This document shows positions 2,892-26,624 of a stretch of 64,000 bases of DNA, piece after piece. Within the stretch, counting starts at the first letter, position 1, and every line of letters starts with the position of its first letter. Where the stretch lies: the NCBI RefSeq assembly GCF_003691365.1, contig NZ_CP033087.1, positions 448,501 to 512,500 of the forward strand. The letters are read 5' to 3'. The position numbers and the translations under genes were made by a program. Origin of the DNA: Commensalibacter melissae. GTDB taxonomy: Bacteria > Pseudomonadota > Alphaproteobacteria > Acetobacterales > Acetobacteraceae. The notes beneath the pieces were generated by a model. It did not search any database, was not told where the DNA came from, and saw only the letters and a program-made list of their open reading frames with translations.

Positions 2892-3632
2892 TTAATTCTG
2901 TAATTTTATTCTTTGTATAGTGTTATGATAACAACCAATGACAAGACTTTGAATTGTTACAGATGGTGTAACATTATTTTTTGAGTGAAAAGAATTTGAG
3001 CGTGGTAAAATTATAGGGTGTGTAAAATTAGGATTGTTACTATAAGGCCAGAGAAAAATTTTACCATTTTCTTTTATTTCAACTATTTTAAGGGTTTGCT
3101 CATAACAATTTGTTAATTTATCATAACGAATGGTAACAACACATTCACCATCTTTAGGGGCTCTTTCTAAATCAGAAAAATTGACAGCAATGATGATAGA
3201 GCCTTTAGGATATAACAAATTCATTGATTCATCCCTGATATTCAAGGCAAAGCTTTTTGCATTTTTAAATTCCGGATTCTCAGGAATGGGAAAAATAATC
3301 CATTCGGATTGTGGCCATTCTACTTTCTGAATCCATTGAGAGGCTTCTATATTTCCTTTGATATAGATTATTTTCAAAGAAATAAAAGGGTTTTTTAAAG
3401 TCAAAGAGGGAGGGGAAGATTTTGGATTTAGAGCGTTCAGAAAATAGTCAATACTGATATTTAATGAATTTGCTAACTTGATTAACTTGTCAACTTTGGG
3501 AAAATTACCATTTCTCCGCATATCTCTAATGAAATCTGGACTTATACCAGCATTAATACATGCCTTGCGTTCACTAATATTTTTTTCTTTTATGATGTTT
3601 TCAATGTTAAATAACAGCTTTTTTATGTTCAT
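2892..3632 (-). CDS. XRE/S24-type repressor (phage CI/C2-like)
   Basis: A 246-residue protein with an N-terminal helix-turn-helix (residues about 17-45, KACINAGISPDFIRDMRR) and a C-terminal S24 LexA-like domain. The nucleophile is S136 in RDESMNLLYPKGS. K182 in YEQTLKIVEI is the likely general base. Such repressors are self-cleaving switches, inactivated through RecA after DNA damage. In phages they hold lysogeny; in chromosomes they can control prophages in trans. It sits about 21 kb from the structural phage genes and 1.3 kb from a phage-like ssb. A dyad of 12-base operator-like sites lies 41-81 bases upstream, consistent with autoregulation. Which promoters it controls is inference only. 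Confidence 0.85.
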   Translation of the reverse strand: MNIKKLLFNIENIIKEKNISERKACINAGISPDFIRDMRRNGNFPKVDKLIKLANSLNISIDYFLNALNPKSSPPSLTLKNPFISLKIIYIKGNIEASQWIQKVEWPQSEWIIFPIPENPEFKNAKSFALNIRDESMNLLYPKGSIIIAVNFSDLERAPKDGECVVTIRYDKLTNCYEQTLKIVEIKENGKIFLWPYSNNPNFTHPIILPRSNSFHSKNNVTPSVTIQSLVIGCYHNTIQRIKLQN

Positions 3633-17558: not shown

Positions 17559-19754
17559 TTATGATGTTTTATGCTGTTGGTGTCTGTGAATAAGCTCTTG
17601 TCTTTCAACAATTTCAATTTTTCCAGATTGTGCATTTTCAACATCCATTACAATAACATAATCACAATGCGCAACTGTTGCAGGCCGGTGTGCCACAATA
17701 ATGCGTGTTATATTCATTTCATCTAGTATTGTCGCAATATGGGCTTCTGTTGGTTCATCCAGACTGCTGGTTGCTTCATCTAAAAATAGGATTGCTGGTT
17801 GGCGATATAAAGCTCTGGCTAAAATAACCCTTTGTTTTTGTCCTCCTGACAAGGAACTTCCCATATCACCAACAAATGTTTCAAATTTCATGGGCATTGC
17901 CATTATATCTTGTAAAATTGCAGCTTTCTGTGCACATTCAATAATTTTTTCCTGATCAGGTTTATCATCAAACCCGCAAATATTATCTGCAATTGAACCA
18001 GAAAACAGTCCATCATCCTGTAAAACACCAGCAATTTCTTGTCGGTAATTGTCTAGAGATTCTTTTAATATATTTCGACCGTTAAAGTAGATATCACCTT
18101 CCTCTGGATGGGTTAAACCCATCATTGTTTTTAAAATTGTTGACTTTCCACATCCTGATGCGCCTACAATAGCAATACTTTTACCCTTTGGAATTTTCAG
18201 GTTTATATTACGAAATACCCAAGGTTCAGCAGGAGAGTATCTAAAACCCAAATTTTTACACACAAGATGGTTTTGATCATTAATATGAAGTTGTTCCGTC
18301 AATCTGTTATTATTCGATATAGATATTATAGCATTTTCTTCACTTTCTATAGGTGTTAAGACTATATCTGAAATACGATCGCTCTGGATAGAAAGCATTT
18401 TTAGTTTGAAGGCGGCACCGATAAGATTGCCTATGCGTCCGGTGAATTGGTCTTTGTAAGATAGAAAGGCAACCAGCATTCCAACTGTCATTTTATTATC
18501 CATGACGTAATGTGCCCCGATTACCAACATTATTAACCTGTCAATAGCGAAGATGGAATCATTTATACGTCCAAAAATAAGGTCATAACGTTGTGTTTTT
18601 AATCCGACATTGATTGCATCAACCAATAAATTTAACCAGCGTGCACGTCTTCGCTCCCGCAATCCAAGTAACTTGATACTTGCCATACCTCTCAAAGTTT
18701 CAATAAGATGTGAATCCTTTTTAGCATTATAGACAATACCCTCTTCAGAGGCTTGCTTGTAAGGGCGATAAGCCATAAGACGGCTTATACCGTCAAGGAT
18801 TACAGCAATTAATGTTACAAGTGCCAGCCATTTACCATAGATGATTAGCATTACAAACATACCAATTGCCATTAAACCATCCATGATTGCTTGTACCATA
18901 TCAGTTGTAATGGTTTGTTGAATAATACCTAATGAACCGAAACGGGATAATATATCTCCAACATGTCTTTTCAAGAAATAATCCAGCGGTAATTTGGATA
19001 AATGTTCAAAAAGGCTGGCATTCCATTGAACAGATACACGGGTGCTGAAAAGCATGACCATCCATGTTCGGGCTGTGGAAATAAGCATTTGCAGCAAAAT
19101 AAGAATGGCAATTCCAACTGTGATTGTTGTTAGCAAGCCGTTATCCAAAGTCACAATGACTTCATCAATAATGACTTGCGAGGCCATAGGCATGACAATT
19201 GAAATAGCTTCCAACCCAAGGGATGTTAATAAAAGATAAAACAGGGTTGTTTTAAGACCGTCTGTTTTTCTGAAAAGATCACGTAAATGAAGATTGTTGC
19301 GCTCATCTTTTCGGGTAAAATTTTGGTCGGGAGCAATCTCAAGCGCCACTCCTGTAAATTCATTATTGATTTCACCCCAAAGTACCTTACGTTTTCCACG
19401 GGCGGGATCATTAATCATAATTCCATTGGTTTTTACATCTGTTAACACGACAAAATGGTTTAAACTCCAATGAAGAATGCAAGGTAAGCGTAATTTGTTT
19501 AGTTCTTCCATTTCCAAACGCAAAGGACGTGTTGTCAAGTTATTCCGTTGCGCAATATCAATAATATTCTGTAGAGTAATTCCTTTGATAGAAATAGATT
19601 CTCTTTGTCTAAATGTTGTTAGATCAATATAATTTCCATAATAACTCATAATCATGGCAAGGCATGCCAAGCCACATTCGGAAGCTTCCACTTGCAAAAT
19701 TACGGGAACAGTTTGGCGAAAAGCAAAATTTAGTCTTTTCAAGGTATTAATCAT
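17559..19754 (-). CDS. Peptidase C39 ABC exporter of double-glycine peptides
   Basis: A 731-residue bifunctional exporter of the CvaB/microcin class. Residues 1-130 are a C39 cysteine protease, with oxyanion-hole Q21, catalytic C27 in SECGLACLAMI, H100 in LNHFVVL and D116 in INDPARG. It cleaves leader peptides after Gly-Gly. Residues about 160-440 form the membrane domain with six spans. The ATPase carries Walker A GASGCGKST near residue 535, signature LSGGQKQR near 638 and LFLDEATSSLDEPTEAH. It overlaps the HlyD gene by ATGA, so the two are co-translated. Together they would pump the peptide encoded at 21274-21633 across both membranes with an outer-membrane channel encoded elsewhere. Confidence 0.93.
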   Translation of the reverse strand: MINTLKRLNFAFRQTVPVILQVEASECGLACLAMIMSYYGNYIDLTTFRQRESISIKGITLQNIIDIAQRNNLTTRPLRLEMEELNKLRLPCILHWSLNHFVVLTDVKTNGIMINDPARGKRKVLWGEINNEFTGVALEIAPDQNFTRKDERNNLHLRDLFRKTDGLKTTLFYLLLTSLGLEAISIVMPMASQVIIDEVIVTLDNGLLTTITVGIAILILLQMLISTARTWMVMLFSTRVSVQWNASLFEHLSKLPLDYFLKRHVGDILSRFGSLGIIQQTITTDMVQAIMDGLMAIGMFVMLIIYGKWLALVTLIAVILDGISRLMAYRPYKQASEEGIVYNAKKDSHLIETLRGMASIKLLGLRERRRARWLNLLVDAINVGLKTQRYDLIFGRINDSIFAIDRLIMLVIGAHYVMDNKMTVGMLVAFLSYKDQFTGRIGNLIGAAFKLKMLSIQSDRISDIVLTPIESEENAIISISNNNRLTEQLHINDQNHLVCKNLGFRYSPAEPWVFRNINLKIPKGKSIAIVGASGCGKSTILKTMMGLTHPEEGDIYFNGRNILKESLDNYRQEIAGVLQDDGLFSGSIADNICGFDDKPDQEKIIECAQKAAILQDIMAMPMKFETFVGDMGSSLSGGQKQRVILARALYRQPAILFLDEATSSLDEPTEAHIATILDEMNITRIIVAHRPATVAHCDYVIVMDVENAQSGKIEIVERQELIHRHQQHKTS

Positions 19755-21061
19755 GAGTTCGGTTTCGTTAATCTTGTTTTAATAGTATCGTTAACCTCAA
19801 TAATGGGTTGGAACATCCATTGATAAAGGCGACGATAATCAACGGCAATATCAGCTTCAACTTGCATTCCGGGCTGCAAAAAATATTTTTTATTGGAATA
19901 AGCCGCAATGAAGTTTTTTTCAGGTTTTACCCGAATTCTATAAAAGTTACGATCAATCTTACTGTTGGGACCAATTATTTCATTTTTTAAATTTGGATTG
20001 CTGTCTTTACCCATTATATCCGATGTAACTGGTGTATAAGTAATTTCGGTAACAGTCCCGTTGTATAGACCAAATTTTTGATATGGAAATGCTGCATAAC
20101 GTAAGATAACATTGCTATTTTTCTTTAAAAGTCCCACGGCTGAACTAGGAATATAAAGTTCGGCTTCGATTGTTTGACCTTCTGGAACTATACTTGTTAA
20201 GGCGGAATCTTGTGAAACTTGCTGACCGATATATCCCCGAAGCGCTGTTATTGTTCCATTTATGGGGGCTGTAACGAAAATAGTTTGATTACGTTCTCCC
20301 AGTATGATTTTCTGATCAATATCATTTATGCTTTTTTTAATTTCATTGAGATCACGTTGATAATTGTTATCGTACAGTTGATATTTTGATGCATTTTCTA
20401 ATATTTGGCCTTCAATCGAAGTTTGATTTTGTAAGAACTGTGCATGAGTACCTAAAATTTGGGCATATGTGTATAATTGATTCTGATATTCCTGATTTGT
20501 TGCCAAAGACATTTTCTTGGCTTTTTCAATCATCAGTAACGATTGTTGGACCAAGGGGATTATTTGATTGTCATTTTCGATTTGCTGGGTAACTTTGTCA
20601 TGCTGTTTGTAAAGATTAGAGAGTGTTTCCTTAATATTGTTTTTTTCAATGGGAGCGGCCTTTTCTTTGAGTGCAAGCTGTTTTTCAAGAATATTTTTTT
20701 GTTTTTTCAACAAGTTATTAGTTAATTGTTGTGTGGGTCCATTGATAGAGGTGTTTTCGAGACTTATCGTGAATAATTTATCGCCTTTATGAACAAATTG
20801 GCCCTCTATAACGTTTTTTTCAATAACAATGCCATTTGTTCTTGATCCTATAGTGATTAACCCTTCTGTAGGCATAATGCTGCCGGAAGCATGTATACGA
20901 CGCGTATAACCACCAAAAATAGTGTATAATATGATAATAACGACACAAATGAATGAGATAACCGCGATGATTTTTATAGGAATAGGTTGTACATCCTGTA
21001 CGCGACCTAACCATGTATCTCGTTTTGCTTCTAAAACTTCATGCCTGAAAAGAGAATTCAT
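19751..21061 (-). CDS. HlyD-family membrane fusion protein (CvaA-like)
   Basis: A 436-residue periplasmic adaptor that links the C39 exporter to an outer-membrane channel. One N-terminal membrane span lies at residues about 30-50 (IKIIAVISFICVVIIILYTI). A lipoyl half-motif follows (GSRTNGIVIEKNVIEGQFVH), then a long alpha-hairpin (about residues 120-260, Gln/Lys-rich coiled coil), the second lipoyl half (APINGTITALRGYIGQQV) and a beta-barrel ending in YFLQPGMQVEADIAVDYR. The length matches bacteriocin-type HlyD proteins. The gene is first in the two-gene export unit and is separated from the precursor gene by a strong hairpin. Confidence 0.92.
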   Translation of the reverse strand: MNSLFRHEVLEAKRDTWLGRVQDVQPIPIKIIAVISFICVVIIILYTIFGGYTRRIHASGSIMPTEGLITIGSRTNGIVIEKNVIEGQFVHKGDKLFTISLENTSINGPTQQLTNNLLKKQKNILEKQLALKEKAAPIEKNNIKETLSNLYKQHDKVTQQIENDNQIIPLVQQSLLMIEKAKKMSLATNQEYQNQLYTYAQILGTHAQFLQNQTSIEGQILENASKYQLYDNNYQRDLNEIKKSINDIDQKIILGERNQTIFVTAPINGTITALRGYIGQQVSQDSALTSIVPEGQTIEAELYIPSSAVGLLKKNSNVILRYAAFPYQKFGLYNGTVTEITYTPVTSDIMGKDSNPNLKNEIIGPNSKIDRNFYRIRVKPEKNFIAAYSNKKYFLQPGMQVEADIAVDYRRLYQWMFQPIIEVNDTIKTRLTKPNS

Positions 21062-21109
21062 GGATAATAATTTTGATAGATTAAATAAATTTTATAAGAA
21101 AATTGAGAA

Positions 21110-21149
21110 ATAATATTTCAATCATAAATGTTTATGATTGAAATATTAT
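21110..21149 (-). terminator. 40-base perfect palindrome between peptide gene and exporter genes
   Basis: Two exact 19-base arms around a 2-base centre, extended by flanking GAGAA/TTCTC, lie 49 bases upstream of the HlyD start and 125 bases after the peptide stop. On the minus strand it is followed by TTTCTCAATTTTC. It probably acts as a partial terminator or processing site, so that the precursor is made in excess of the exporter. This is an inference from position. Confidence 0.6.
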
Positions 21150-21273
21150 ATATTCTCTAAAGATTTTTTATATTTATATTAATTATTAAGTGAACCAATT
21201 TAAACGATAAAAACAACTTATTTTAAATAATATAATGAATAGTTGTAGGAAAATTTCATTATGTATCTTGAAA

Positions 21274-21633
21274 CTAATGGAAGAGATTAGCAATTCCCTG
21301 CGATATTCCATTAATAATTCCAACTGTACCTAATCCTATCCCGGAAATTGCATTGTTAACATTGCTACTTATATCGGCGGCATTTTTTGATTTGGCTGCG
21401 TCAACAATAGATCCAATACCACTTCCAAGTTTACTTCCGGCATTTGCTTCATTGTTGGTTTTAATTCCTGTTAAGCTACCATAAAGATTATCGACAATTC
21501 CTCCAATTGAAGCGCCTATGAAAGAGCCTATTAAAGCGGAAGAAACGGGAAGTGTAATATTGCCCCCGATAATATCACCCAAAAAAGATCCACCTGATAC
21601 GCTATTGATTTCATGTGATGTAATTTCTCGCAT
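21274..21633 (-). CDS. Double-glycine leader peptide, glycine-rich bacteriocin-like precursor
   Basis: A 119-residue precursor. The leader MREITSHEINSVSGG matches the double-glycine consensus (acidic/hydrophobic spacing, Val at -4, Gly-Gly at -2/-1) cut by C39 exporters. The predicted mature peptide is about 104 residues and very rich in Gly, Ser, Ile and Asn. It has a glycine-zipper hydrophobic stretch (ALIGSFIGASIGGIVDNLYG) and a second one near the end (GIGLGTVGIINGISQGIA), as in pore-forming class II microcins. There are no cysteines. AGGA lies 8 bases before the ATG. Adjacency to HlyD and C39 ABC genes gives strong context. No immunity gene is recognisable next to it. Confidence 0.85.
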   Translation of the reverse strand: MREITSHEINSVSGGSFLGDIIGGNITLPVSSALIGSFIGASIGGIVDNLYGSLTGIKTNNEANAGSKLGSGIGSIVDAAKSKNAADISSNVNNAISGIGLGTVGIINGISQGIANLFH

Positions 21634-21785
21634 TTTAACATTCCTGAATAGAAAGGGTTATAATTTATTTCAATAACCTATCATCAAATTATTAACATAT
21701 CAAATCAAATATACAATTGTAATTTATTAATAATACTTAATCATTAAAAATGTTAAACGATAATTGCATTTTTATTAGAAGTTTG

Positions 21786-22574
21786 TTAATTTTTATTAAA
21801 ATGGATTTTCCGTGACTTTTTGAGGAGTTCCTGTTTAACTTGTTTAAGTTTTTTTCTGAATTCTTGATTTGCATGTAAACGAGCGACGACTTCAGCTCCG
21901 ATCAAGCGGCCTGCGTCTACATCGCTTTGCCAGTGTGCACCACAAATAACACGACTTTGTCCGAATTCATAACCTTCTTTCAATATCTGGTCTTGTTTAT
22001 CTGGAAAAATTTCGGATAGAAATAAGGCAGCAGACCATCCAAAAGCTGCGTGACCTGAAGGGTATGAACCATCCTTACGCATTAGGCTCTCATCCTCTGG
22101 AGTACAGCTGTGTGTGTGATAATACATAAAAGGACGAATTCTTTGATAGTGTTTTTTCGCTTTATCAGTTCCAAAATTACCGCTCATGATTAACAGATCC
22201 TCTAAAAAATCTTGAGTGATAGGGGTATTTTTCTTGGATATTTCAATACCGATGGTTTTAGAAAAGTTCTTTCCGATTGTTCCGTTAAAAATAGCGGCTT
22301 CTTCAATGGCTTGGTTCCATCGAGATGTGTTTATAAGTTTGCGTGTATTGAGATATATTTCTTTATCAATTGTGAATAGTTGACTATTTTTATCTGGTGG
22401 GGGCGGTAAAAGTTTCAAACTATTTGCGAATTGATCAGTATGCAAGGGTAATTTTTTTGATTTAATAAATAGTCTTTTAATTTCATTTTTTTGTAAATTG
22501 CTGGATTGTCCAGTTAAGGGGAATATTAGGATATTTATTAATAATGTAAAAATAATTGTTTTTTTATAATTCAT
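21786..22574 (-). CDS. Class A non-specific acid phosphatase (PAP2 superfamily)
   Basis: A periplasmic phosphatase of 262 residues with a signal peptide (TIIFTLLINILIFPLTGQSS). The three PAP2 motifs are complete: K140-x6-R147-P148, PSGH at 172-175 with the phosphate-stabilising His, and S207-R208-x5-H214-x3-D218, where H214 is the nucleophile. This is the PhoN/PhoC class, which releases phosphate from many monoesters. It is monocistronic, separated from the peptide gene by 152 AT-rich bases, and probably unrelated to it. Confidence 0.92.
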   Translation of the reverse strand: MNYKKTIIFTLLINILIFPLTGQSSNLQKNEIKRLFIKSKKLPLHTDQFANSLKLLPPPPDKNSQLFTIDKEIYLNTRKLINTSRWNQAIEEAAIFNGTIGKNFSKTIGIEISKKNTPITQDFLEDLLIMSGNFGTDKAKKHYQRIRPFMYYHTHSCTPEDESLMRKDGSYPSGHAAFGWSAALFLSEIFPDKQDQILKEGYEFGQSRVICGAHWQSDVDAGRLIGAEVVARLHANQEFRKKLKQVKQELLKKSRKIHFNKN

Positions 22575-23021
22575 TGGTCTCTATTTATTTGTTATAAAAA
22601 AATTAAAGATAATATATTAAGTAAATTTATCATATGTTTTATGTTTTTATTATATTTATTATTCATGATAGTTTTGATGAATATGTATGGTATTTAAAAT
22701 TATGGATTGCTTTGTTATAAAAATTAAATATTATTAATATTTTTGTTTTGAAATGATTATAAGGAAAACGTTTTTTTAAAATAAATATTCGCAGAGTTGA
22801 ATGTCGTTACTTATTTTTATAAATAATATATTTTTATTTTAGTCAGTATAATTTTTAAGGAATAGTTAATATAAAAAATTATCAGAGTTCACCATAATCA
22901 ATTAGTTTATGATGTTTAATTTAAATTAATAAATTTAAGACTTTAAATACATTTTACGTAAAAAATTTTAAACAGTTTTTATCGCTTGCTTCTGTAATAA
23001 AAACAGTATGGATAATGATAT
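22575..23021. other. AT-rich divergent intergenic region
   Basis: 447 bases between the divergent phosphatase and AraC-type genes, expected to hold both promoters. I see no gene, RNA or clear operator in it. Confidence 0.5.
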
Positions 23022-23993
23022 ATGAAAAAAATAGATCTTATTAATATTGGTCTTTTAATGTACCCTAATGTTCAACAAGGAGCCATTTTCGGTTTAATTG
23101 ATTTTTTTTCTGTGGCAAATCAGTTGGTCAAGGAGAATTGGAATTCTAACCTTCCCATACCTCAAATTAAAATTGTAAAAATTGATAAGCCAACAGTGAA
23201 TTTTAACCTGCCTTCATTTATTGTTAAGAAAAATGACTTGAATTTTTCTGTGATCATTGTCCCTCCTTGTACAGAAGAATTTCCATCTGGAAGTAAATAT
23301 AATACGCATATTAATTTTTTAAAACATTCCTTTAAACAACCTTGTACAATTGCCTCTATTGGCAATGGCATTTTTTTATTGGCAGAGACTGGACTATTGG
23401 ATGGTTATACAGTTACGACTCATTGGCAGTTAAAACATCGATTTAGAAACCAGTTTCCAAATATCTATACTGATTTTGATTCTATGGTCATTGAGGAAAG
23501 AAATATTATTACTACGGCAGGTTCATTATCTTGGATAGATCTTGGGTTGGAATTGGTTAAAAAATTTTTCGGTTCCATAGTGATGGCTGAAGTTGCACGA
23601 TTTTTTTTGGTCCAACCTGCAAGACGTGCACAAAGTTATTTTAATATTTTTTCACCTAATTTAACGCATGGAGATATTCCAATAATTAAGGGACAAAAAT
23701 GGATATCTAATCAAAAGAATATGAATATTTCATTGAAACAGTTATCGAAAGTAACAGGATTGGAAATACGGACATTGCAGAGGCGTTTTATTAAAGCCAC
23801 GGGAATGACTGTTACAGAATATATTCAACATCATCGAATTTGCCGTGCTCAATTTTTATTACAATTTTCAAAAAAATTGATTGATGAGATAGGAATTGAA
23901 TGTGGCTATAAAGATTTAAATGCGTTTCGGAAGATATTTACAAAAATAGTAGGATTATCTCCCAGTCTTTATCGTCGGAATTTTACTGTTTAA
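23022..23993 (+). CDS. GlxA-type AraC-family transcriptional regulator
   Basis: 323 residues. The N-terminal half (about 1-190) is a DJ-1/PfpI-like ligand domain (INIGLLMYPNVQQGAIFGLIDFF, ASIGNGIFLLAETGLLDGYTVTTHW). The C-terminal 100 residues hold two AraC helix-turn-helix units, in SLKQLSKVTGLEIRTLQRRF and DEIGIECGYKDLNAFRKIF, ending with the GLSPSLYRR signature. Such regulators respond to small metabolites, often amines or amides. In this copy the nucleophile-elbow position reads IGNGIFLL, without the cysteine of true peptidases, as in other regulators of the group. The ligand and targets are unknown. Confidence 0.9.
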   Translation: MKKIDLINIGLLMYPNVQQGAIFGLIDFFSVANQLVKENWNSNLPIPQIKIVKIDKPTVNFNLPSFIVKKNDLNFSVIIVPPCTEEFPSGSKYNTHINFLKHSFKQPCTIASIGNGIFLLAETGLLDGYTVTTHWQLKHRFRNQFPNIYTDFDSMVIEERNIITTAGSLSWIDLGLELVKKFFGSIVMAEVARFFLVQPARRAQSYFNIFSPNLTHGDIPIIKGQKWISNQKNMNISLKQLSKVTGLEIRTLQRRFIKATGMTVTEYIQHHRICRAQFLLQFSKKLIDEIGIECGYKDLNAFRKIFTKIVGLSPSLYRRNFTV

Positions 23994-24238
23994 AAATTTT
24001 TAATATTATGTTGAAAGTAAAATTGTTTTAAGTACAACAACAATTAATTTTATTAAATATAAATAAAAGTCAAGTAGATGTATAACAATAGGTAACATTT
24101 TAATGAGGTGATGAAATAATCATTGAAATAACTTAAAAAAAATTATAAATATATTTTATTAGAAAATTAATAAGCACATTCTTTTTTTAGTTAATATATT
24201 TTTACAATAATTTTTAATAATACTTTTAATTACTGGTT

Positions 24239-24272
24239 TTCCCTTAATTATGTAAATTCATAATTAAGGGAA
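24239..24272. repeat. 34-base perfect inverted repeat in AT-rich gap
   Basis: Two exact 14-base arms (TTCCCTTAATTATG and complement) flank a 6-base loop, inside the otherwise featureless gap 23994-24452. There is no T-run on either side, so it is not a standard terminator. It may be a protein site or a processed RNA hairpin at the left border of the phage block. Confidence 0.6.
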
Positions 24273-24452
24273 TATAAAAAAGAATTAATAATATTAAATT
24301 AATGGTTAATTTGGAAAAACTATTTCATAATTTTGTAATTTTTTACTTCTATTACATAGTTTAATATTATTAATCATTATTTTAAAATAATGATTTTTTT
24401 ATTCTATAAAAATTTAATTAATATTATTAGATAATATTTTAAGCAAATAATT

Positions 24453-24707
24453 ATGGAAAATCCTCGAGCTAGAAAAATTAAATTTTTAAAAAAACATAAG
24501 TTGCCATTGGAAATAATGATTTTAATAATGAACAAAGCTTTGGAGGAAAAAAAATATGAAACAGCTTTGGAAATTGCCTATAAGACAGCACCGTATTGCC
24601 ATCCAAAATTGAATGATGCAAAAGTAGAAATGACACAAATCAAAACATTAGAAGATATGTCTGAAGAAGAACTAAAAAACTTTATTGGCGAGGTCGCGTT
24701 AAAATAG
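24453..24707 (+). CDS. Small phage protein, possible terminase small subunit
   Basis: 84 residues: a basic N-terminus (RARKIKFLKKHKLP), then a helical segment ALEIAYKTAPYCHPKLND and an acidic C-terminus with SEEELKNFIGE. The combination of a repeated-helix region, APYCHPKL and a closing EEL motif is common in small proteins encoded just before phage large terminases. This one lies 484 bases before terL on the same strand. I infer a DNA-recognition role in packaging. No clear helix-turn-helix is visible, and the protein is shorter than most small terminases (about 120-180). Confidence 0.55.
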   Translation: MENPRARKIKFLKKHKLPLEIMILIMNKALEEKKYETALEIAYKTAPYCHPKLNDAKVEMTQIKTLEDMSEEELKNFIGEVALK

Positions 24708-24729
24708 CTTTATTATAAAATTAATAATG

Positions 24730-24766
24730 ATGTAACCTTGATGAAGCAATTCTATCAAGGTTACAT
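24730..24766. terminator. Convergent terminator hairpin
   Basis: A 13-base perfect stem (ATGTAACCTTGAT and complement) with an 11-base loop lies between the stops of the plus-strand gene (24707) and the minus-strand peptide gene (24775). The position suits a bidirectional terminator; T-runs are weak. Confidence 0.65.
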
Positions 24767-24774
24767 AAAGGCTC

Positions 24775-25044
24775 TTATCTGCCAAAATGATCAACAAAAC
24801 TATATTTCTCAGCAAAATAGTTGTGAATATTTTTTCCGATTGTGGCCCAATTATTACCGTTTTCTAGTCCGGTTTTAATGATATTAAGTTTTGCCAAGCC
24901 ATCAGCTTTACCATTATGAGGAGGATTAATAACTCTATCATGATGATTATTATGCTGTTGATTATTGTTATGATGTTGATGATTATTATTGTGACCATGA
25001 CCACCAGCAACTTTTGACAATTCGTTTGTTTGTAAAATTTTCAT
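24775..25044 (-). CDS. Double-glycine leader peptide, His/Asn-rich
   Basis: An 89-residue precursor. The leader MKILQTNELSKVAGG fits the double-glycine consensus very well (Leu at -12 and -7, Glu at -8, Val at -4, Gly-Gly). The predicted 74-residue mature peptide begins His-Gly-His and has 8 histidines in its first 20 residues, interspersed with Asn and Gln. The second half is ordinary (GKADGLAKLNIIKTGLENG, ending DHFGR). A free amino terminus followed by His at position 3 is the ATCUN copper/nickel-binding arrangement. AAAGG lies about 9 bases before the ATG. The gene is antisense to the phage genes flanking it and 4-7 kb from the C39 exporter, its likely route out. No homologue is known to me. 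Confidence 0.75.
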   Translation of the reverse strand: MKILQTNELSKVAGGHGHNNNHQHHNNNQQHNNHHDRVINPPHNGKADGLAKLNIIKTGLENGNNWATIGKNIHNYFAEKYSFVDHFGR

Positions 25045-25190: not shown

Positions 25191-26624
25191 ATGATTTTGC
25201 TACAAAAAGCAAAAAAATTAGCCATTGAAGAACTAAAAAAACGTCATGATGCGCGTCATTATCTTTCGGCATTTACAATTTATACAAAACCGGATTATCG
25301 TGCCGGTCTTCATCTGAATTTATTATGTAAAAAACTTGAAGCAGTTGAACGTGGTGAAGTTAAAAGACTGATGGTTTTTATGCCACCGCGCCATGGAAAA
25401 AGTGAATTAATTTCAAAACGTTTTCCTGCCTGGTTTTTAGGGCGCAATCCTACAAAACAAGTCATTACAGCCAGCTATTCAGCTAAACTTGCTGATAAAT
25501 TTGGTCGTGATGTTCGTAATTTAGTGACATCAAAATATTATCGAAATATTTTTTCTGATGTTGCTCTTTCAATTGATAGCAAAGCAAAGGATTTATGGGA
25601 AACCAATCATGGGGGTGTGTTTTTAACAGCCGGTATTGGTGGAAGCATGACAGGTTATGGAGGACATCTTGCTATCATTGATGATCCTGTAAAAGATAGA
25701 CATGAAGCTGAAAGTCAAATAATGCGTGATAATGTCTGGGATTGGTATAAGTCTGTATTGAGAACACGAATTATGCCCGGTGGGGCCATTATTATTGTTC
25801 AGACTCGTTGGCATGTTGATGATTTGTCGGGAAGGTTATTATCACAGATGAAAAATGATACAGGTGAAAAATGGGAGGTTATTAATTTACCAGCTATTGC
25901 AAATGAAAATGATGTTTTAGGACGGAAAAAAGGTGAGCCTTTATGGCCTGAAGCGTATGATAGAAATGAGCTTGAACAGATTCGAAAGGCAGTGGGTGAA
26001 CGAGACTGGTATGCTTTGTATCAAGGTGAACCAACGCTATCAACTGGATCAATTTTCAAAGTCAATATGCTAAATATTATTGATGCAGCACCAAAACCAG
26101 TCCAGGTTGTCAGACGTTGGGATTTTGCTGCTTCCAGAGATATTGGCAAATATGATCCTGATTGGACCGTGGGGGTAAAGATGCAACGGAATGTAGATAG
26201 TGGATATACAGTGCTTGATGTTGTGCGACTTCGTGGTTTGCCAGATGAAGTTATTAAGACTGTCAAGGCTGTCGCCAGTCAGGATGGTTTTGATGTTAAA
26301 ATTGTAATTCCACAGGATCCTGGACAGGCGGGTGTGGCTCAGGTGCAATATTACCTCAAAATGCTTGCCGGGTATAAAATAAAAGCAATACGGGAAACGG
26401 GGAATAAGATTGCCAGAGCTGACCCATTTGCATCACAGGTTAACATAGGAAATGTATCTTTATTAAGAGCTAATTGGAACAGATCATATTTAGATGAACT
26501 TTCTGACTTTCCTAATGGTTCACATGATGATCAGGTTGATGCTTCTTCTGGCGCTTTTGAAGCTATTTCATTACAAAGAAAATTACCGAAAATGCCGAAT
26601 TGGCAAGGAATTATGAATATTTAA
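25191..26624 (+). CDS. terL: Phage terminase large subunit
   Basis: A 477-residue packaging motor that pumps phage DNA into the prohead and cuts it. The ATPase has Walker A MPPRHGKSE (about residues 63-71) and Walker B LAIIDDPVKD (about 159-168, catalytic acidic pair). The C-terminal RNase H-like nuclease has RWDFAAS, VIPQDPG and the closing acidic HDDQVDASSGAF (about 445). The length is normal. It is followed by its own hairpin and a 368-base gap before the portal gene, which is unusual for tightly packed packaging modules. Confidence 0.95.
   Translation: MILLQKAKKLAIEELKKRHDARHYLSAFTIYTKPDYRAGLHLNLLCKKLEAVERGEVKRLMVFMPPRHGKSELISKRFPAWFLGRNPTKQVITASYSAKLADKFGRDVRNLVTSKYYRNIFSDVALSIDSKAKDLWETNHGGVFLTAGIGGSMTGYGGHLAIIDDPVKDRHEAESQIMRDNVWDWYKSVLRTRIMPGGAIIIVQTRWHVDDLSGRLLSQMKNDTGEKWEVINLPAIANENDVLGRKKGEPLWPEAYDRNELEQIRKAVGERDWYALYQGEPTLSTGSIFKVNMLNIIDAAPKPVQVVRRWDFAASRDIGKYDPDWTVGVKMQRNVDSGYTVLDVVRLRGLPDEVIKTVKAVASQDGFDVKIVIPQDPGQAGVAQVQYYLKMLAGYKIKAIRETGNKIARADPFASQVNIGNVSLLRANWNRSYLDELSDFPNGSHDDQVDASSGAFEAISLQRKLPKMPNWQGIMNI

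Follow-up and report, generated by a model that had tools for sequence, protein, structure and literature searches.

A genus-conserved C39 exporter of Commensalibacter melissae and the double-glycine leader peptides that it very probably releases

Commensalibacter is a genus of insect-gut symbionts within the Acetobacteraceae. Here, we analyzed a stretch of 64,000 nucleotides of Commensalibacter melissae DNA (bases 448501-512500 of contig 1, in a genome of 2.02 Mb; hereafter, the window) that encodes a C39-peptidase ATP-binding cassette (ABC) exporter, a HlyD-type periplasmic adaptor, and two precursors of small proteins, PEP1 and PEP2. These four open reading frames (ORFs) were found at the coordinates given in a first-pass annotation of this DNA. 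The HlyD gene is 0.2 kb from PEP1, and PEP2 is separated from the exporter gene by 5.0 kb and from PEP1 by 3.1 kb. As that annotation had described, PEP2 is antisense in a phage block; it is found there between the terminase genes terS and terL. In C39 exporters, the precursor docks by its leader on the peptidase domain and is cleaved behind the double glycine; the remaining part then leaves by way of the ABC protein, the HlyD protein, and a TolC-family channel. Judging from the sequences, at least three small proteins with the same leader, two of them encoded in the window, very probably leave the cell through one exporter, and they resemble bacterial weapons or surface proteins.

The exporter contained the Pfam domains Peptidase_C39 (E 2.7e-35), ABC_membrane, and ABC_tran, and it has the Cys-His-Asp set (C27/H100/D116) by which the C39 domain of C39-containing type I secretion is recognized. 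The adaptor is encoded in the same operon, and OEP domains, which stand for the TolC-family component, were detected in six ORFs of the genome; Pfam, residues, and coordinates thus confirmed the export unit of the first-pass annotation. The best solved relatives of the exporter were chains named 'ABC-type bacteriocin transporter', and among the best was PDB 4ry2 (PCAT1 of Clostridium thermocellum), aligned over residues 11-712. Unlike the unit described here, PCAT1 is from a Gram-positive organism and functions without HlyD (cf. the available part of PMC10233263). A single tblastn match spanning the C39 domain was obtained in the C. melissae genome, and the next-best transporter had no C39 domain by Pfam. 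Two samples were searched, 397 genomes of the Acetobacteraceae and nine of Commensalibacter, and the exporter was present in 70 of the former (E 1e-60) and in 9/9 of the latter. A 'bacteriocin exporter gene (COG2274)' has been reported in all Commensalibacter genomes (PMC10149009, in the part available), and this is probably the window exporter or a class including it. One assembly, G204, held two exporter loci (L055, on contig 22, and L054, on contig 7) that were 99% and 86% identical to the window exporter, and this assembly may mix two strains.

The leaders were scored with a matrix made from 16 leaders of other Acetobacteraceae genera, hand-picked from loci scanned with a regular expression. 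The PEP1 and PEP2 leaders, 33% identical to one another, reached 29.3 and 25.0 bits, whereas the third-best of the 177 ORFs in the window scored -1.8 bits, and 60 dinucleotide-shuffled windows gave at most 10.8. Since these scores, obtained with a matrix from other genera, tower over those of the other ORFs and of the shuffled windows, both leaders are real, and the two double-glycine precursors proposed at first pass were borne out. A leader profile of 15 positions, built from 20 leaders including three of the C. melissae genome, was run over the nine genus genomes and gave 42 matches with an E of 10 or lower, and every genome (9/9) had a match. At E up to 0.01 there were 33, one to nine per genome; the weakest of the 42 probably arose by chance. 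In the C. melissae genome, only three matches were obtained up to E 10, i.e., PEP1 (1.3e-5), PEP2 (8.4e-5), and a third (6.2e-6). This third precursor is PEP1-like and unlinked, its neighbors were read as mnmE, rsmG, and parAB, and it is found at the equivalent site in G122, G201, G202, and G204. With one C39 exporter and three leader-bearing ORFs in the genome, the earlier suggestion that a single exporter handles both precursors is very probably correct. Translation of 13 of the 42 matches showed mature parts of several unrelated kinds after one leader: glycine-rich, short (about 25-30 residues), one Pro/Tyr-rich, one starting with HHH, and one of the PEP2 type.

A second matrix, made of Commensalibacter leaders alone, was applied to 20 loci that had been retrieved from other genera by their exporter. 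A leader-bearing ORF was found in 11 of them, within 3.5 kb of the HlyD gene in eight, and when three loci of a second genus (g85), fetched for PEP1, were added, the counts rose to 14/23 and 11/23, respectively. None of 115 shuffled loci contained a leader-bearing ORF.

Table 1. Features of the exporter locus and of the neighboring terminase region (window coordinates; PCAT, peptidase-containing ABC transporter)
Feature	Coordinates	Strand	Remarks
C39-peptidase ABC exporter (PCAT type)	17559..19754	-	731 aa; C27/H100/D116 present
HlyD-type periplasmic adaptor	19751..21061	-	Pfam HlyD_3; 4-base overlap with exporter start
AT-rich hairpin between PEP1 and HlyD, 18-bp stem	21110..21149	-	z -4.7 vs 200 shuffles
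PEP1 precursor	21274..21633	-	119 aa; leader MREITSHEINSVSGG at 21589-21633; mature part 104 aa, glycine-zipper
terS, small terminase subunit	24453..24707	+	phrog_641 E 4.9e-4; precedes terL in relatives
PEP2 precursor	24775..25044	-	89 aa; leader MKILQTNELSKVAGG at 25000-25044; His/Asn-rich spacer, C-terminal core
PEP2 conserved core	24799..24906	-	residues 47-82; helical hairpin in model
terL, large terminase subunit	25191..26624	+	483 bases from terS here, PEP2 in between

The alignment of the PEP1 family, with 22 members, showed the leader followed by repeated GxxxG units. PEP1 itself is composed of 49% Gly/Ala/Val/Ile and has a glycine zipper at residues 36-44 (GSFIGASIG), followed by D48; further GxxxGxxxG motifs start at 15, 66, and 105, with charge inside those at 15 and 66. 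The AlphaFold2 (AF2) model, built from four sequences only, was mostly helical (pLDDT 79). A fold search with this model gave no match at E 0.001 (the best, at 0.8, was not used), the PEP1 profile matched no solved-structure sequence at E up to 1 and no plasmid at E 0.01, and the anti-phage defence models matched neither PEP1 nor PEP2. Among the 397 family genomes, 21 had a match to the PEP1 profile, which included the leader in 14 and not in seven; the exporter (E 1e-60) was present in 14/14 of those with the leader and in 0/7 of those without. The hypergeometric value for this co-occurrence was 9e-12, ignoring kinship and with the split chosen after viewing the matches, and by genus it was 4/4 vs 28/102 (p 0.005). 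Peptide orthologues in genomes without any C39 exporter, named in the first-pass annotation as evidence against its proposal, were not encountered among the leader-including matches, as all 14 of these genomes contain the exporter. In addition, the order PEP1-HlyD-C39 was found in g85, in three of its four exporter-bearing genomes, with identities of 43-45% for HlyD and 59-60% for C39. In G030, a PEP1-family gene adjoins another ORF with a GG leader (MMRSLTTTEQTAVSGG...) at L056:9977-10800, on a contig other than that of the exporter.

The PEP1 relatives differ strongly between species, and G202 had ten PEP1-family matches, several of them in tandem beside the exporter. It could be argued that the double-glycine peptides are cell-cell signals: C39 exporters export signals in Gram-positive bacteria, ComA, the competence-factor transporter, is one of the exporter's solved relatives, and no immunity gene was found. 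The PEP1 mature part is, however, large (104 aa) and of the composition given above, and its relatives are strongly divergent between species, so this explanation is very unlikely.

The best Pfam match of PEP1 was MccV (E 3e-4); the other weak Pfam families matched by members were attributed to composition. By the definition of class II microcins in the available text of PMC10233263, a leader of 15-18 aa ending in GG or GA lies near PCAT and membrane fusion protein (MFP) genes, and PEP1 shows this arrangement. No convincing immunity gene adjoined a precursor at the 11 sites scanned, and the similarity of PEP1 to known microcins was below the cut-off. The microcin V system (CvaC/CvaB/CvaA/Cvi) also has a 15-residue GG leader, a C39 transporter, an adaptor, and a TolC-family protein encoded elsewhere, whereas the precursors are scattered here and neither an immunity gene nor an MccV score above the cut-off was found.

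The Cdz system of Caulobacter crescentus (cdzABCD, cdzI; PMC5380434, as far as the available part describes it), another alphaproteobacterium, resembles the present locus in several respects: small glycine-zipper precursors encoded next to type I secretion genes, leaders ending in G[G/A/S], one to several peptides that are more variable than the exporter, and a cluster without a TolC gene. This likeness was judged by the criteria published in that paper. PEP1 showed three of the four sequence traits listed there for Cdz-like proteins: with 119 aa and a leader end SGG, it falls within 60-151 residues and has the G[G/A/S] ending, with type I secretion genes within 10 kb, and its zipper is flanked, not interrupted, by proline or charge. 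The short charged or polar C-terminus was not observed, as PEP1 ends in ...GIANLFH, of which IANLFH is neither charged nor polar. The systems also differ in that the exporter here seems to be shared by unlinked precursors and by another peptide family that lacks a zipper, and no CdzI-like gene was found; there was no convincing candidate for a small transmembrane immunity protein of the CdzI type near the peptides, and no search using CdzI itself was made. A bacteriocin-like role of PEP1 is rather likely and an antibacterial action of the peptides plausible, and no firm role is assigned to PEP2.

Several results weigh against the reading of the peptides as exported, bacteriocin-like cargo. No convincing immunity gene was detected near any peptide, which is unusual for bacteriocins, and this upholds the first-pass statement that none of a known family lies nearby. 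A scan of the 11 peptide sites for small hydrophobic ORFs returned some short ones, none of which was seen to recur; an unusual or unlinked one is conceivable. The MccV score of PEP1 was 21.8 bits, below the cut-off of 27, and only 9/22 family members matched MccV at E up to 0.1, the best at 3e-4. TIGR01847, the curated NCBI leader model, had matches in four of the nine genus genomes and none above its cut-off (0/9); PEP2 gave an E of 0.42, below the cut-off, and PEP1 had no match, and this model is too distant to judge the window leaders. Finally, no leader-bearing ORF reached the threshold in 9/20 of the exporter loci in other genera. Outside the genus, 61 genomes carry the exporter, and the 20 loci had been drawn from those that scored better. 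Four of the nine loci (L156, L159, L168, and L172) touch a contig end, and G013 has leader-bearing ORFs elsewhere on its contig. The PAP2 phosphatase adjoining PEP1 was considered as an immunity candidate and is not favored: in G200, G201, and G202 it is found beside AraC, kilobases from PEP1 or HlyD. In G204 contig 7, this phosphatase adjoins PEP1, as in the window.

The peptides could alternatively be matrix, adhesion, or biofilm proteins rather than weapons. In Synechococcus elongatus, several double-glycine proteins, EbfG1-4, and the C39 transporter PteB serve biofilm formation (PMC4997328, in the part available), which is a published non-killing case. It is like the present one in that a single C39 transporter goes with several different double-glycine proteins, and unlike it in being cyanobacterial and having a biofilm function. 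Moreover, glycine zippers also drive aggregation, according to the available part of PMC5380434, the exporter is present in all genus genomes and not patchy, and the lack of a convincing immunity gene fits such a function; in the excerpt of the microcin review at hand, Bacteroides peptides with a double-glycine motif and without an immunity protein are also described (PMC10233263). On the other hand, the peptides differ between species both in copy number and in sequence, as in competition systems, the mature parts are of several unrelated kinds, and MccV, though weak, is the commonest Pfam match in the PEP1 family. We therefore regard a matrix, adhesion, or biofilm function as rather unlikely.

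Relatives of PEP2 were detected in four genomes, with five genes in total, all of them in Commensalibacter, and none was found outside this genus among the 397 family genomes. C. intestini (G201) had two PEP2 genes. One of them is 5.6 kb past the exporter and lacks the His/Asn-rich part, the other is on another contig and has an Asn/His-rich part, and both are outside phage genes, as far as the ORF lists could be read. The leader and a 36-residue core, with 19/36 core positions invariant in the three sequences, are common to PEP2 and these paralogues; the His/Asn-rich spacer is optional and the core is kept. In the AF2 model, the core was a confident helical hairpin and the remainder had low confidence. 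Three copies of an 18-base direct repeat at 24941-24994 form part of the spacer, and therefore its length may change by slippage. A plasmid search with the C. intestini relative of PEP2 gave no match.

The first-pass annotation had proposed that PEP1 and PEP2 form a two-component microcin system. They carry leaders suited to a single exporter and are located within 8 kb, and a PEP1-family gene was present in all four PEP2-bearing genomes. However, the PEP1 family occurs without PEP2 in G202, G203, G173, and other genera, PEP2 was found only in Commensalibacter among the 397 family genomes, the two C. intestini PEP2 genes are sited elsewhere, and the genome has a third, unlinked precursor. The pair is thus not kept together in related genomes, and PEP1 and PEP2 are not always paired and adjacent, as the peptides of two-peptide (class IIb) bacteriocins are. 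Given PEP1 without PEP2, PEP2 at unlinked sites, and a third client, a two-component system is unlikely, and that PEP1 and PEP2 are halves of one two-peptide bacteriocin is highly improbable.

The phage block (24453-51325) is phiAO1-like and encodes terminase, portal, protease, major head protein, tail sheath, and fibres; it adjoins AraC, at a site near the exporter where the block is also found in G200-G203. Acetobacter phage phiAO1 (LC644971) is alike in its terL, 57% identical, and in having antisense host-like genes amid structural genes; it differs in that nothing is annotated between its terS and terL, and it is a phage record, in contrast to the chromosomal, long-resident block here. 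The identities of terL and of the portal gene correlated at 0.95 and 0.97 with those of the host gene amtB (10 pairs, five species), so the block seems long-resident, and it is possibly domesticated. No integrase was noticed in the block, no search aimed at integrases having been made. In the divergent exporter-bearing contig of G204 (L054:1947-5836), the terminase, portal, and protease genes were fragmented. Secreted-looking proteins with an ADDLNxNY-like motif were seen among phage structural genes in several species (L053:9680-12262, L042:6241-7110, and L044:1-4043), and these are perhaps additional cargo of the same phage block.

In G200-G203 and in phiAO1, terS and terL overlap, without PEP2, and in the window lineage PEP2 fills most of the gap between them. 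This gap was also found in the sister lineage represented by G204 contig 7, where there was no trace of PEP2; therefore, either the gap predates PEP2, or PEP2 was lost in that lineage. The position of PEP2 between terS and terL, together with a 98% identical copy within one provirus record of IMG/VR, could suggest that PEP2 is a phage gene whose start resembles a leader by chance and whose product is not exported. We consider this extremely improbable, as the leader scored far above the next ORF, the leader is retained in two paralogues that share the core and are outside phage genes as far as readable, and the overlap of terS and terL in G200-G203 leaves out PEP2. Membership of PEP2 in a phage gene family was also rejected, with no match in 50,697 phage records and the single IMG/VR record as the only one.

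The stem of the hairpin between PEP1 and HlyD was identical in the same-species genome G122 and slightly altered in G204 contig 22, and in G204 contig 7 the hairpin was not detected in this form. This putative hairpin is a possible attenuator or processing stem and, being kept in the lineage, could set the peptide:exporter ratio. An S24-type repressor gene was found at 2892-3632 (-) in the window and in relatives at L042:15003-15752, L044:12948-13697, L041:2290-3084, and L052:19139-19894, identified by Pfam for the window and L042 copies and by ~50% identity for the others. In G200-G203, it is immediately upstream of the PEP1 or HlyD genes, on the same strand, and in the window it is 18 kb off; the peptide operon may formerly have been under phage-type or SOS-type control.

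On balance, it is reasonably probable that one core C39 exporter serves modular, exchangeable cargo, with PEP1 and PEP2 independent of each other. In this mechanism, the genus-conserved type I exporter would consist of the ABC protein, HlyD, and one of the six TolC-family proteins encoded elsewhere; it would recognize the 15-residue double-glycine leader, cleave after GG (or GA/GS), and release the remainder, so that mature PEP1 would begin with SFLG, PEP2 with HGHN, and the third peptide with ASFT. The cleavage, secretion, and TolC use of the clients are what we infer from the genes. The clients would be a modular, changing set of peptides scattered over the genome, here PEP1 beside the exporter, PEP2 in the resident phage block, and the unlinked PEP1-like third. 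With less certainty, the PEP1-family peptides might be membrane-active, glycine-zipper, bacteriocin-like molecules, similar to microcin V or Cdz, either free or at the cell surface, and PEP2 might be a cargo of its own, in which the helical core, kept apart by the His/Asn-rich spacer, is the active part. PEP1 and PEP2 would act independently, with no obligate pair. More tentatively, it is possible that Acetobacteraceae gut symbionts hold an open secretion platform, in which the fixed core C39 exporter serves a changing pool of unrelated, immunity-less peptides for which the leader is the sole requirement. One such cargo gene would then have entered the space between terS and terL, in a phage block beside the exporter that has co-diverged with the host genus.

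Among the matches listed from the open-licence literature on Commensalibacter or Acetobacteraceae bacteriocins, double-glycine and class II microcin mining, and C39/HlyD systems of acetic acid bacteria, we found no report of these peptides. The exporter now gains candidate clients, three in the window strain and one to nine leader matches per genus genome (E up to 0.01). This makes testable which peptides the symbionts release, what effect they may have on the gut community, and how producers would survive without an evident immunity gene, and acetic acid bacteria can be searched for such peptides with the leader signature.

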